A stretch of DNA of 54,852 bases from a bacterium (lineage in GTDB: Bacteria; Babelota; Babeliae; Babelales; JABGSX01), in NCBI GenBank assembly GCA_018647505.1, contig JABGSX010000027.1, positions 1 through 54,852 of the forward strand. Reading direction: 5' to 3'. The notes beneath the pieces were generated by a model. It saw only the letters and a program-made list of their open reading frames with translations. It did no database searches and was not told where the DNA came from. The number at the start of each line of letters is the position of its first letter. Position 1 is the first letter of the stretch. Shown piece after piece: positions 20,819-31,641 of the stretch. The position numbers were made by a program, and so were the translations under genes.

Positions 20819-22597
20819 TTACTTTTTTTCTTTCCCCTTAACAAGAGAAAGCCCATATTCTTTGAGCAATTCTTTATCGACATGGGTAGGAGCATTCATC
20901 ATCGGATCATACCCTCTCTGCGTTTTTGGAAACGCAACAACCTCTCGCAAAGACTCAGAGCCCGTCAACAACATAACAACACGATCAAGCCCTAACGCTA
21001 TTCCTCCGTGTGGTGGAAAACCATACTTCTGAGCCTCTAATAAAAACCCAAACCTCTCATTCATTTGCTTCTTATCCAACCCAAGCAAATCAAACACTTT
21101 TTTTTGAACATCCGCATCATGTATACGAATTGATCCTCCACCAAGCTCAACACCATTCAAAATAACATCGTAGGACTTGGATTTAATATCAGATACATCC
21201 ATATTCTCCCATCCATCCTGCGGAGATGTAAACGGGTGGTTAACCGATTCCCAACCTTTTGTGTTTTCGTCATACTCAAACAATGGAAACTCGGTAACCC
21301 ACAGAAAGTTCATCTTGTCTTTTGGGATCATATTCAACGCTTTAGCAACCTCTAGTCTCAACCGTCCAAGTTGGTCCCAAGTTTTTTCGTACTTTCCTGC
21401 AATAAAAAATGCAATGTCGCCACAGCTTAGCGCCTTATTTTCAATTTTTTCTATCTGTTCGATGAAGTTGTCGGGTAAAAATTTTGATACGGGAGACTCC
21501 AGTTTTCCGGCCTCTAAAACCCTAGCCCATAAAAGGCCCTTAGCGCCAAATCCTTTTGCCACGTTCTCCCATTTTGCAATTCCTGCACGAGTAACCCCAG
21601 AGTCACGCAAGACAAATCCCCCAATTTTACCATCATTTTTTAGAGTATCCTGTAAAAACCGCAACTCAGTGTTTTTGAATGTCGACGTGAAGTCTTTTAT
21701 TGTCATATCAAATCGAGTATCAGGTTTGTCAGAACCATAAAGACCAAAAGCGTCTTTATATAACATTCTTGGAAATGGAACTGTAACATCCACATTGCAG
21801 GCCGTTTTAAGCGTGTAATGCAACAAGCCTTCAATAACGCTTATAATATCTTCTTCGTCCACAAAAGACATTTCTACGTCTAGCTGGGTAAATTCTGGCT
21901 GCCTATCTGCCCGCAAATCTTCGTCTCTAAAGCAACGTGCAACTTGAAAGTACTTCTCGAATCCTGCTGCCATAAGAAGTTGTTTATAAAGCTGTGGGGA
22001 CTGTGGCATTGCATATACATATCCATGATGAATCCGCGATGGAACAAGAAACTCCCTCGAGCCCTCGGGTGTGTTTTTTGTTAAAATTGGAGTTTCAACC
22101 TCATAAAACTCTTCTTTCATGAAAAACTCGCGCATAGCAAAGATTATTTTGTTGCGCATAACTAATTTTTCGCGTGGGCCCTTGCGCCTTAGGTCTAAAT
22201 AGCGATATCGAAGCCTTAGCTCTTCTTCAACACCTTCGGCCTCGTCTAAAATAAATGGCAAAGTTTCTGCCGAACTTAAAATATCTACTTCATCAACCTT
22301 CAACTCTAGTGCGCCTGTTGACATGTCCGGGTTTATATTTTCCTTCGAGCGATCAACAACCATGCCTGTCACAGAAACAACAAATTCACTCCTAAGGCTT
22401 TCTGCTTTTTTGTGTGCATCATTTGATATTTCTGGATTAAACACAAGCTGCATAACCCCACTGCGATCGCGCAAATCTACAAAAATTAACCCTCCATGGT
22501 CTCTTCTTTTGTTTACCCAACCACACAGGCTTATTTTTTTGCCCTTAAAGGCCTCTGCAACAAGGCCACAACCAGTTGTCCGCTCAAGCTTTTTCAT
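20819..22597 (-). CDS. aspS: Aspartyl-tRNA synthetase (bacterial type)
   Basis: It charges tRNA-Asp with aspartate. The 592-residue protein has the N-terminal OB-fold anticodon-binding domain (VAEAFKGKKISLCGWVNKRRDHGG), class II motif 2 (FRDEDLRADRQPEFTQLDVEMSF), a bacterial-type GAD insertion (about 300-410) and motif 3 (GIALGLDRVVMLLTGSESLREVVAFPK). Length and insertion fit the bacterial enzyme. Because the downstream region also holds gatB, a non-discriminating AspRS that also charges tRNA-Asn is possible, but that cannot be decided here. Confidence 0.96.
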   Translation of the reverse strand: MKKLERTTGCGLVAEAFKGKKISLCGWVNKRRDHGGLIFVDLRDRSGVMQLVFNPEISNDAHKKAESLRSEFVVSVTGMVVDRSKENINPDMSTGALELKVDEVDILSSAETLPFILDEAEGVEEELRLRYRYLDLRRKGPREKLVMRNKIIFAMREFFMKEEFYEVETPILTKNTPEGSREFLVPSRIHHGYVYAMPQSPQLYKQLLMAAGFEKYFQVARCFRDEDLRADRQPEFTQLDVEMSFVDEEDIISVIEGLLHYTLKTACNVDVTVPFPRMLYKDAFGLYGSDKPDTRFDMTIKDFTSTFKNTELRFLQDTLKNDGKIGGFVLRDSGVTRAGIAKWENVAKGFGAKGLLWARVLEAGKLESPVSKFLPDNFIEQIEKIENKALSCGDIAFFIAGKYEKTWDQLGRLRLEVAKALNMIPKDKMNFLWVTEFPLFEYDENTKGWESVNHPFTSPQDGWENMDVSDIKSKSYDVILNGVELGGGSIRIHDADVQKKVFDLLGLDKKQMNERFGFLLEAQKYGFPPHGGIALGLDRVVMLLTGSESLREVVAFPKTQRGYDPMMNAPTHVDKELLKEYGLSLVKGKEKK

Positions 22598-27196: not shown

Positions 27197-29122
27197 TTAT
27201 TTTTCTGGAACCTCTATTACGCACTCCACGGTATCATCAACCTGCCAATCTGTAAAGTCCGAAATTAAAAATGCACATTCAAAACCTTTATGGACTTCTT
27301 TTACAATTTTCCTATCCCTTTGAAGGCTTTGTATTTTACCCCCACCAAGACGCTTTCCTCTGCGAAAAGCAACAACTTCGCCGTTGCCAGTAAATATGCC
27401 ATCTTTAACATATACGCCCGCAATAACTCCCGACCCTTTTATGTCGAAAACCTTTCGAACAACAGCTTCCCCAATTTTTTTCTTGATCAATTTAACTTTT
27501 TTGCGCCTATCAAACAAAATCTCAAGCTCTTCTAGAAGCTTGTAAATAATTTCTGACAAAAGAATGGAAACGTTTTTCTTCCTAGCCAAAATAGATACGT
27601 TTTGGTCGGCCTTAACATGCAGCCCTAATATAGTTGCCCCAGTACCTGAAGCTAAAAGAATGTCGCTTTCATTTATAGCGCCAACACTCGCCTGAACAAT
27701 ATTCACGCAGCGCTCTTTGTCTTTGCTTATTAGCTTGTTTATAGACTCCAGGAGCGCCTCTTTAGTAGAATTTGTATCAGTCTTAACGATAAGAACAAGT
27801 TCTTCCTCTGTTCCAGCTTGGCGGCAATCGCTAGAGGCTTTACCGCTTAAAGAAGCAAAATCTTTCGCCTGTCGAAGCCCCTCTGAAGAAACAACCTCAA
27901 AAAGTGTACCAACCTCTGGAACTGCAGAAAATCCTGCAACAACAGCTGGTATTGACGGCCCAACAGAATCAACCCGCTCTCCACTAGAACTAACCAAAGA
28001 ACTTACCTTGCCAAAAACCTTGCCACAAACAAAAAGATCGCCAACCCTAAGAACTCCATGCCGACCTATAACCGTTGCAACGGCTCCACGGCCCTTTTCT
28101 AGGCGACTCTCCAAAACGTAACCCTGTGCCTGGCGAGAATCATCAGCTTTGAGCTCAAGCAACTCAGCTTGTAGGGCTATAATCTCTAATAAATGGTCTA
28201 CCCCCTCGCCTGTCTTCGCCGAGACAGGAACACAAACAATGTCTCCGCCCCACTCTTCCGGCAAAAGATCATATTGTGCTAGCTCTCTCTTTATAATTTC
28301 AATCTTTGAAGCCTCAGCCCTGTCGATTTTGTTAATCGCTACAACAATCGGAACTTTCGCGTCCTTGGCATACTTGATCGCCTCAACGGTTTGCGGCATA
28401 ATGCCATCGTCGGCGGCAACAACAAGCACAACCAAATCTGCAACTCCAACACCGCGCGCCCGAATTCTAGAAAAGGCCTCGTGCCCTGGAGTATCTAAAA
28501 AAACAATATGGCCGTGATCTGTTTTCGCCTCATATGCACCAATGTGTTGCGTGATTCCACCTTTTTCTTTGGATACAGCACGAGTTTTTCTTATAAAATC
28601 TAAAAGCGTTGTTTTTCCATGATCAACATGCCCAACAACAACAACAACAGGAAGGCGAGAGTCGCTCCCCTCTTGAGGGCTAATAGCTTCCCCTAAAACA
28701 GCCTCCTTCTCTGCTGCGCTTTTTTTTGCAACCACCAGCTCATAATGCTTCGCCAAGCTTGCAACAACGTCTTTCGATAAGGCCTGATTTTTTGTGCTCA
28801 CAACACCCTGTCGAAGCAGTGTCAAAATAACGCCTCCAGAGGGAACCCCTAAATAATCAGCAAACGCCGCAACAGTCATAGGACGAATAATAAAAGGGGG
28901 CTTTTCGGACCGCTTTTCTCCACCCTTCTTGCGATGCGCCACCGCAGTCGATTTTTTACCGATAGCATCACCTCTCTTCTGCAGCTCAGAGCGCACAAGA
29001 GCCTCTTGCTCATCTGTCAACGAAGACATATGCCCGGAGACAATTTCGCCACACCCATGAAGAACACCCAAAACCTCTTTGTTGGTAACGCCCAATTTTT
29101 CGGCTATTTCATAAACTCGCAT
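27197..29122 (-). CDS. infB: Translation initiation factor IF-2
   Basis: IF-2 is the GTPase that brings initiator tRNA to the ribosome. The 641-residue protein begins with an IF2-N helix domain (MRVYEIAEKLGVTNKEVL), has a second IF2-N-like segment (MTVAAFADYLGV, about 80-130), then the G domain with VVGHVDHGKTTL (about 160), DTPGHEAF and NKIDRAE, and C-terminal domains ending in the initiator-tRNA-binding barrel (FTDWQVDDTVECV). It lacks the long low-complexity N-terminal extension of enterobacterial IF-2. It follows nusA by 41 bp in the classic nusA-infB order, but without rimP upstream or rbfA downstream. Confidence 0.96.
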   Translation of the reverse strand: MRVYEIAEKLGVTNKEVLGVLHGCGEIVSGHMSSLTDEQEALVRSELQKRGDAIGKKSTAVAHRKKGGEKRSEKPPFIIRPMTVAAFADYLGVPSGGVILTLLRQGVVSTKNQALSKDVVASLAKHYELVVAKKSAAEKEAVLGEAISPQEGSDSRLPVVVVVGHVDHGKTTLLDFIRKTRAVSKEKGGITQHIGAYEAKTDHGHIVFLDTPGHEAFSRIRARGVGVADLVVLVVAADDGIMPQTVEAIKYAKDAKVPIVVAINKIDRAEASKIEIIKRELAQYDLLPEEWGGDIVCVPVSAKTGEGVDHLLEIIALQAELLELKADDSRQAQGYVLESRLEKGRGAVATVIGRHGVLRVGDLFVCGKVFGKVSSLVSSSGERVDSVGPSIPAVVAGFSAVPEVGTLFEVVSSEGLRQAKDFASLSGKASSDCRQAGTEEELVLIVKTDTNSTKEALLESINKLISKDKERCVNIVQASVGAINESDILLASGTGATILGLHVKADQNVSILARKKNVSILLSEIIYKLLEELEILFDRRKKVKLIKKKIGEAVVRKVFDIKGSGVIAGVYVKDGIFTGNGEVVAFRRGKRLGGGKIQSLQRDRKIVKEVHKGFECAFLISDFTDWQVDDTVECVIEVPEK

Positions 29123-29163: not shown

Positions 29164-30282
29164 CTATTCTTCGTTTTTATCCTTGTTGTCGCTCTTATCA
29201 TCTTTATCGTTGTTGTCGCTCTCATCGTCGGCATCATCACCACCAACAAAAACTCCTGAGCCAGAAACCGACTCTATAGAAGCAAGCGATATTGGAATTC
29301 CAACAAGCCGCGACGCCAATGCAATGTTTTGCCCCATTTTTCCTATGGCCAATGATCGCTGGTCCTTGTCGACCCAAACAACTGCGGCCCCATCGTCTTG
29401 AATCAGCACCCTATTTACCTCAGCAGGCTTTAGAGCGTCCCGAACCAAGTCCTCTCTCGATGACCCCTCGGAGATAACATCAATCTTTTCGCTTCCGATT
29501 TCTTTCAAAATAGGCTTTATTCTCGCCCCTCCAACACCAACACACGTCCCAACCGGGTCAATGTTAGCGTCGTTAGAAGAAACAACCATTTTTGCTTTAT
29601 AGCCAGGAATCCGAACAACCTTTTTGATATCAATAAGGCGCTCAAAAACCTCTGGGACCTCAAGCTCAAACAGCTTCTTTAAAAATTCTGGTGAAGCCTG
29701 ATCCAAAATCAGCTGACTGTCGTTTCTCGGCTCAAGCAAAACCTCCTTTAAAAGCGCCCTCATGTGCCCTCCAGCCACACAATTTACTCCGGGAGATGAA
29801 GCCGACCTCGGCATAAAGGCAAGCGCGTCTTGAATTTTAACAATAACACCATTGCGCTCACACTTGTGAATAACACCGTAAACAATCGAACCCTCTTTAT
29901 CCTTAAATTTATTGCAAACCGCTTCGGCTTCGACAGCACGAATCATTCCAGCTATAATTTGTTTGGCTCTAAGAATTTCTATTCTGCCAATAGGAGAATC
30001 AAACGGCACCCAGACTTCGTCCCCAAGCTTAGCTTTTGGCTCTTCCGTATGCGCTTTCCTGAGGCCAATCTCGATTTCTACATCATCAACATGAGATACA
30101 ACCGTCTTTTTGGCCATTACGCGAACTTCGTCACTTTTTTTCTCGTAGCTCACCTTCAAAGAAGCCTCTGGATAGCGCTTTTGGTAAGCTGCCATAATAC
30201 CATCACAAATAATTTCGCTTAGAACTTCTCGGCTTAACCCGCGCTCTTCAACAAGCTCATCTATTACATCAGAAAGATTCAC
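29164..30282 (-). CDS. nusA: Transcription termination/antitermination factor NusA
   Basis: NusA binds RNA polymerase and modulates pausing, termination and antitermination. The 372-residue protein has the NusA N-terminal domain (about 1-125), an S1 domain (SIVYGVIHKCERNGVIVKI, about 133-200) and two KH domains (VRIPGYKAKMVVSS, GVGGARIKPILKE, VNRVLIQDDG...IGKMGQNIALASRLVG). The C-terminus ends in a 25-residue Asp/Asn/Lys tail instead of the acidic repeats of gammaproteobacteria. The start codon is GTG at 30282, supported by AAGGGG 5 bases upstream. It is the first gene to the left of the putative replication origin. Confidence 0.95.
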   Translation of the reverse strand: MNLSDVIDELVEERGLSREVLSEIICDGIMAAYQKRYPEASLKVSYEKKSDEVRVMAKKTVVSHVDDVEIEIGLRKAHTEEPKAKLGDEVWVPFDSPIGRIEILRAKQIIAGMIRAVEAEAVCNKFKDKEGSIVYGVIHKCERNGVIVKIQDALAFMPRSASSPGVNCVAGGHMRALLKEVLLEPRNDSQLILDQASPEFLKKLFELEVPEVFERLIDIKKVVRIPGYKAKMVVSSNDANIDPVGTCVGVGGARIKPILKEIGSEKIDVISEGSSREDLVRDALKPAEVNRVLIQDDGAAVVWVDKDQRSLAIGKMGQNIALASRLVGIPISLASIESVSGSGVFVGGDDADDESDNNDKDDKSDNKDKNEE

Positions 30283-30368: not shown

Positions 30369-30596
30369 ACAACTGAATGTTTAGTGTACCATAAATTCTA
30401 GAAAAGAAAATCGCACAATAAAAACCACTCCCAAAAGAACGTGCTCTAATAAAAATGTCTGAATGTGCACCCACAATAATGCCATTGCTCTTTTTTCATG
30501 CACACTGAAAAGAAAATGGGGTTAAGGTTTTTAAAAGTTTTCCCAAAGAAACAGAAACGAAGTGTTATTGACACTAATTCCGGTTTTTGGGGTTTC

Positions 30597-30645
30597 CCCA
30601 TTATTATACTCTTAGATAATATATTATATATATAATAATAATGGG
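30597..30645. other. AT-rich tract framed by an 11-bp inverted repeat (candidate DNA unwinding element)
   Basis: CCCATTATTAT (30597-30607) is mirrored by ATAATAATGGG (30635-30645). Of the 43 bases 30600-30642 only three are G or C, the most AT-pure stretch in the origin region. Such a tract next to DnaA-box arrays is the expected place for strand opening. Confidence 0.6.
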
Positions 30646-30658
30646 CTAAGGGTATAAT

Positions 30659-30767
30659 TGTCGATAACTTTGCTTTTGGCCTTTGGATAGTCGCTTTTGC
30701 TCGCCGCATCCTCTTGAAAAACGATTGTCGATAACCTGTCGATAACCTGTCGATAACTTGTCGATAA
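30659..30767 (-). repeat. Left array of TTATCGACA 9-mers (minus orientation)
   Basis: The sequence TGTCGATAA occurs at 30659-30667, 30726-30734, 30737-30745, 30748-30756 and 30759-30767. The last four start exactly 11 bp apart, about one helical turn, so they would present the same face of the DNA to a binding protein. Confidence 0.9.
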
Positions 30768-30877
30768 CTTTTTGGCTGGAGCCCTGTTTTTCTTAAATGT
30801 GGCTGTCGGGAGGGGTATTCAGCGAGTCGAAGGGCTAAACGTTGGCCCAGAAGGGGAATGCGGCTTCATGAAAAAAG

Positions 30878-30930
30878 TTATCGACAGTCTGTCGACAGGT
30901 TATCGACAAGTTATCGACAAGTTATCGACA
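30878..30930 (+). repeat. Right array of TTATCGACA 9-mers (plus orientation)
   Basis: TTATCGACA occurs at 30878-30886, 30900-30908, 30911-30919 and 30922-30930. The 11-bp register is filled at 30889-30897 by a degenerate copy (CTGTCGACA) that is part of the palindrome CTGTCGACAG. The array faces the left array across a spacer of about 110 bp. Confidence 0.9.
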
Positions 30931-31065
30931 ATTTTCTATATGAAAAGACATGCTTTTTGTTGTTTTCTATCTGGAATTTTCTATTGTCATCCATTGTGCC
31001 AGTTTTTATTTTCTGGTTGTCGGATGTGGCTTTTTGCGTACCTTGCACAAGGTGGCCAAAGGCCT

Positions 31066-31641
31066 TTATTTGTTTTTTATGTTTTGAGCTGCAAGCCTTA
31101 GGTCTTCAAATAGGTCGGGCATTTTTTTTGGATTACGCAGGATGTAGGCTGGGTGGAAGGTTGGTATTGTTACGATGTTGTTCCATTTGAATAATTTTCC
31201 GCGGGATTGTGTTATTTTTTTGTCATTGCCAAGGAGAGTTCTTGTAGAACATGAGCCGAGTGTGCAAATAACCTTAGGCCGAATAATTTTTATTTGTTTT
31301 TCAAGAAGCGGCAGACATTCGGCTATTTCGTTAGGGAGCGGTAGCCTGTTGTTTGGTGGGCGGCATTTTACGATATTGCCAATGAATATATCCCCTCTTT
31401 TTAGGTTTGCGGATTCTAGCAGTTCATCCAAGAGTTTGCCAGCTCTTCCGACGAATGGTTTTCCTTGAAGGTCCTCATTGCGCCCGGGCCCTTCTCCGAT
31501 AAGCATCAGGTCTGCATCGGGATTTCCATCGCCAAACACAATGTTGTTTCTTTCTGCTTGTGCAAGTGGGCAGCGCTGGCAGTTTTTGTATTGAGTATAA
31601 ATTTCTTCAAGAAGTTTTTGTTTATATTTTTTTTGATCCAT
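31066..31641 (-). CDS. Family 4 (Fe-S) uracil-DNA glycosylase
   Basis: It removes uracil from DNA, the first step of base-excision repair. The 191-residue protein has the four Cys expected to hold the 4Fe-4S cluster: C21 and C24 in CQRC, C93 in VKCRPP and C109. Motif 1 is IGEGPGRNEDLQGKPFVGRAG and motif 2 is TFHPAYILRNP. This pattern distinguishes family 4 from the classic Ung family 1. It is the first gene to the right of the putative origin. dcd (producing dUTP) and nfo (processing the abasic site) lie in the same window. Confidence 0.94.
   Translation of the reverse strand: MDQKKYKQKLLEEIYTQYKNCQRCPLAQAERNNIVFGDGNPDADLMLIGEGPGRNEDLQGKPFVGRAGKLLDELLESANLKRGDIFIGNIVKCRPPNNRLPLPNEIAECLPLLEKQIKIIRPKVICTLGSCSTRTLLGNDKKITQSRGKLFKWNNIVTIPTFHPAYILRNPKKMPDLFEDLRLAAQNIKNK

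Follow-up and report, generated by a model that had tools for sequence, protein, structure and literature searches.

The window analysed here, a stretch of 54,852 nucleotides, is contig 4 of a MAG of 57 contigs (1,075,752 bp, 89.8% complete) from the phylum Dependentiae. Within it we find an intergenic region flanked on one side by nusA (29164–30282, minus strand, 372 aa, with the Pfam domains NusA_N and KH_5), which is followed by infB (27197–29122), and on the opposite side by the uracil-DNA glycosylase gene ung (31066–31641, minus strand; Pfam UDG, 4.6e-37). An exact-match search of this region returned nine perfect copies of TTATCGACA within 30659–30930 (272 bp), five in minus and then four in plus orientation, phased at 11 bp. 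The first is an isolated minus-strand box (30659–30667) with the place and polarity of R1 in E. coli, which is followed after 67 bp (65–69 bp in most relatives) by a left array of four minus-strand boxes (30726–30767) starting at 30726, 30737, 30748 and 30759. A spacer of 110 bp (30768–30877) separates this array from the facing one on the right (30878–30930, plus strand), with TTATCGACA at 30878, 30900, 30911 and 30922, and a degenerate copy, CTGTCGACA, at 30889–30897 with two mismatches. The search thus reproduced the copy number, array coordinates and phasing given in an earlier note on this DNA, which had also rightly called the copy at 30889 degenerate. Adjoining the isolated box, an AT-rich stretch (30593–30645, 86% AT in its richest 50 bp) found at the same place in relatives is inferred to be the DNA-unwinding element (DUE), and fulfils, on sequence only, the oriC criterion that such an element should adjoin the boxes. 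Within it, the putative DnaA-trio-like element TAATAATAA (30633–30641, plus strand), 17 nt from the isolated box, meets the criterion of repeated 5′-TA(G/A)-3′ beyond the proximal box. The E. coli DnaA box consensus TTWTNCACA (PMC7561715) is not met by TTATCGACA, where position 6 is G and not C.

A search for the 9-mer throughout the genome, as the earlier note had advised, found 20 exact copies in 1,075,752 bp (13 for the same sequence written backwards), and the 11 outside the cluster are scattered singles. One further exact copy lies inside the window, at 20874. No second pair of TTATCGACA within 30 bp was detected elsewhere in the genome by a two-box pattern search, and at the genome background the chance of at least nine copies in 272 bp is P ~3e-29. 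The criterion of a cluster of DnaA boxes is therefore met by a cluster unique in this genome, and in relatives the orthologous site is occupied by canonical boxes.

The strand-composition switch expected of an oriC was also found. The cumulative G–C curve of the window reaches its minimum at 30505 and the A–T curve its maximum at 30561, both beside the AT-rich element, with a GC skew of −0.113 in the left half of the window and +0.115 in the right half; the genome being a MAG of 57 contigs, its skew is known from the window only and that of the whole genome was not seen. In this regard, the oriC of Chromulinavorax destructans was published at 651641–652233 from skew and TTATCCACA (PMC6561590), and in that genome (1,174,272 bp) the published origin is the nusA-flanking locus, where the sampled skew flips. 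In Babela massiliensis (1,118,422 bp) the sampled skew changes sign at 652 kb, where the box arrays on the nusA side lie. The origin of this species was published 152 nt upstream of dnaA (PMC4378268), a place that is not at the switch of the sampled skew, and the published assignment looks misplaced.

Comparison of the nusA-flanking regions of related genomes, also advised by the earlier note, was done with 101 genomes of the sole order of the phylum sampled. Of 88 such regions, 77 have facing arrays, the minus-strand boxes being nearer to nusA and the plus-strand boxes farther away, and nusA borders oriC in nearly all Dependentiae examined. The shared anatomy begins with an AT-rich DUE containing TAA/TAG trios and a lone minus box; about 67 bp further on come about four minus boxes in 11-bp steps and, after a spacer of about 100 bp, about four plus boxes. 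Across relatives, 338 of 422 box-to-box steps measure 11 bp, and the median spacer length is 102 bp (middle half 100–113). Among 62 relatives, 47 have runs of at least three TA[AG] on the left side of the isolated box, with 1.7 expected after shuffling, and by their sequence these runs resemble a DnaA-trio, a function which is inferred. The layout is therefore standard for the phylum, and the view of the earlier note that facing 11-bp arrays are unusual for an origin was mistaken, the polarity being also that of R1 and R4 in E. coli. As a separate observation, one origin of a relative (L173) carries 25 copies of TTATCCACC, most of them in a single long run.

The skew minimum, the unique cluster, the synteny with the Chromulinavorax oriC and the conserved anatomy make it very probable that the region is the origin of chromosome replication in this uncultured Dependentiae bacterium, with replication start, unwinding and DnaA binding inferred. 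The earlier proposal of a candidate oriC is thus supported; of the findings that would have refuted it, such as similar clusters scattered across the genome, none of those that could be tested was met.

The letters of the box vary among Dependentiae at the orthologous site. Most relatives have TTATCCACA and one large family, f14, has TTATCCACC, whereas other types are TTATCAACA, TTATGAACA, and TTATGCACC together with TTATCAACC; TTATCGACA was found there only in the studied genome, in G031 (mixed with TTATCAACA) and as one copy in G046. Examination of DnaA domain IV, which the earlier note had recommended, showed that the single copy in the genome has the motif RKNHST instead of the usual G-R-D-H-T/S-T, reading QRKNHST where E. 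coli has GGRDHTT, so that Asp433 (E. coli numbering) of the recognition helix is replaced by Asn. Asp433 has been termed highly conserved and assigned to box position 7 (PMC8235120). Position 7 remains A here, and the covariation falls on positions 5–6.

Among 65 Dependentiae genomes with both box and DnaA data, residue 433 is not Asp (Asn or Ser) in 8 of 10 with non-CC boxes and in none of 55 with CC (p = 9e-9). Non-CC boxes associate more strongly with it than with any other of the 168 DnaA columns, the next one, 404 (3.6e-4), lagging by more than four orders of magnitude. Two genomes (G010 and G069) pair Asp433 with CA boxes, and in a third (G004), whose Asn433 predicts non-CC boxes, the array was not found in the draft assembly. 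A DnaA tree from which the recognition columns had been left out shows about six changes at residue 433 and seven in the box, and three to four of four independent pairs are concordant, with none discordant. The independent changes on well supported branches are few, three to four per phylum, so neither tree test alone reaches 0.05. Other box variants were noticed in the phylum. In f14 relatives (such as L166 and L173) position 9 of the box is C (TTATCCACC), associated with Arg at 423, Arg at 432 and Met at 438 of DnaA. This may be a second change of specificity, but family membership is a confounder. One genome (G070) shows an 11-bp repeat array with TTCTCCAACA in place of the normal box (L178), possibly a far more divergent box, and its DnaA motif reads GGRDHTCVVYA.

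The pairing was also found outside the phylum. A scan for TTATCGACANNTTATCGACA across 84,980 species gave 41 loci, among which multi-copy ones in an intergenic or origin-like setting belong to one member of Poribacteria, one of Aquificota, one of Lentisphaeraceae and two Anaerolineae. In the Poribacteria genome the locus reads rpmH, dnaA, boxes, recF and DnaA has Asn433. In the phylum Poribacteria, whose origin lies beside dnaA, the 44 scored loci comprise 25 with non-Asp and non-CC boxes, 3 with non-Asp and CC, 0 with Asp and non-CC and 16 with Asp and CC (p = 2.3e-9); this count drew on the 30 top-scoring loci and 20 picked further down the ranking, so that sampling was not random, and box letters were tallied along each locus in full. 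The three exceptions (L351, L352 and L382) have Asn with mostly CC boxes. In Aquificota, 1 of 61 genomes has CG arrays and its DnaA has Asn, whereas A. aeolicus has Asp. The clusters of the Lentisphaeraceae genome (Asn433) and of the two Anaerolineae (Ser433) are less securely origins, being without skew or synteny evidence. Asp433 with CG boxes at an origin was not seen among the loci compared. A lineage-specific DnaA box with C6 changed to G, as the earlier note had suggested, is accordingly supported by a DnaA residue that covaries here and independently elsewhere, DnaA binding itself being inferred.

Several matches were discarded. The TTATCGACA clusters of Bacteroidales and Colicola (L210, L223, L232, L236, L243 and L244) were rejected as origins, their DnaA having Asp and the clusters lying in or beside genes mostly of SLFN_AlbA_2/RecG-C type, with repeats unlike those of oriC. 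A Dysgonomonas (L231) has Asn433 and was left out of the count because its copies lie within a coding gene, and single pairs in Nitrospinota, Spirochaetales and UBP16, where DnaA has Asp, were taken as chance. Other observations emerged from these comparisons. Tandem repeats resembling TTATCGACAAT are present at one end of SLFN_AlbA_2/RecG-C-type genes in Bacteroidales (L210, L236, L243, L232), and an Aquificota origin candidate (L224, 5165–5517) sits between rimP–nusA and obg, with nusA as neighbour as in Dependentiae. In the phylum of L211, DnaAs with an NHRT motif go with TTATTAACA boxes (L365, L366, L373, L376–L379) and one DnaA with Val433 goes with TTATACACA boxes; judging from sequence, these may be more specificity variants.

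Three other explanations deserve attention. An operator role, in which a regulator of nusA or ung binds the arrays, would fit their intergenic position upstream of nusA, but is very unlikely given the skew switch in three Dependentiae genomes, the conserved DUE and trios, the canonical DnaA box at this place in relatives and the assignment of the Chromulinavorax locus as oriC in the literature. Still less credit can be given to iterons of an integrated plasmid, or sites of a non-DnaA initiator; regular 11-bp direct repeats do look iteron-like, but the repeat unit is a DnaA box, 77 of 88 regions keep the arrays in a core gene context and a Rep gene was absent among the neighbours scanned. The least weak of the three accepts both oriC and DnaA binding, and holds that the change of Asp433 to Asn is incidental, with other domain IV residues or shared ancestry explaining the letters. 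The association of column 404, the Poribacteria pairing Asn with CC and the small number of independent changes speak for it, and we nevertheless consider it improbable, residue 433 being far ahead of every other column and forming part of the recognition helix, and its pairing with the box letters recurring in several phyla.

With location, anatomy, conservation and covariation observed, we remain highly confident that the region is an oriC whose box change of C6 to G is partnered by Asp433 to Asn; binding, oligomers, unwinding, contact and the order of changes are inferred. DnaA monomers on TTATCGACA boxes would form two facing head-to-tail oligomers, one per array; the isolated box would anchor the left oligomer, which would reach the AT-rich element, leading to its opening and to helicase loading. 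The box would have changed at position 6 from the C of the prevailing, probably ancestral, TTATCCACA/TTATCCACC to G, with Asn as the partner change in the domain IV recognition helix. Where a base presents an amino group in the major groove, as C and A do, Asp can accept a hydrogen bond from it; Asn is able, in addition, to donate one to G. Applied to this case by inference, Asp433 would bind the amino group of C (or A) and Asn would also serve G, leaving positions 5–6 free to drift. Contact of one side chain with position 7 and with 5–6 is plausible, since these positions are adjacent, but unproven. Asn is permissive, as three Poribacteria keep CC, and Asp also occurs with CA. This asymmetry, Asn with CC existing and Asp with CG at an origin not being seen, suggests that the change to Asn preceded that of the boxes. 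Altogether, we think it likely that residue 433 is a recurrent specificity switch, where Asp holds positions 5–6 at CC (sometimes CA) and Asn or Ser allows CG, CA, GA, GC or TA, lineages in several phyla having passed through a CC-tolerant Asn intermediate. We found no text in the open-access literature linking TTATCGACA or residue 433 to a change of box letters, which is no proof of being unknown.

Most elements of this origin have counterparts in known systems. The Chromulinavorax oriC (PMC6561590) shares the nusA-side locus, the skew switch and the box clusters, but combines TTATCCACA/TTATCCACC boxes with Asp433, against TTATCGACA with Asn433 here. The E. coli oriC (see also PMC10316083) likewise has an AT-rich DUE, an R1-type minus box and facing plus boxes (R4) of the same polarity; it differs in its fewer sites of mixed affinity, irregularly spaced beside mnmG, in contrast with the strong boxes (binding inferred) at strict 11-bp steps beside nusA. 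As in the DUEs with DnaA-trios of B. subtilis and H. pylori (PMC8235120), a trinucleotide run lies between the DUE-proximal box and an AT-rich stretch, whereas the Dependentiae trios, of inferred function, are mostly TAA with a gap of 13–17 nt. Boxes departing by lineage from that of E. coli also occur in cyanobacteria (TTTTCCACA), Thermotoga (a 12-mer) and Epsilonproteobacteria (a TTCAC core), but there positions 3, 5 or the whole motif are altered, while here the altered position is 6, a single residue covaries with it and the switch has happened repeatedly.

The origin itself is ordinary, and the interest lies in the repeated paired switch. Origins of this kind will escape origin finders that search for TTATCCACA. 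DnaA is essential and conserved, as is its box, and their joint change has been a long-standing puzzle, requiring some nine sites and one protein to change at once. A CC-tolerant Asn intermediate would allow a whole array to change its letter without losing initiation, and the repetition of the paired change in distant bacteria points to a simple recognition rule. Moreover, since nature offers repeated replicates and matched relatives, together with a permissive intermediate and only one candidate residue, the question can be tested by a single substitution and short oligonucleotides.
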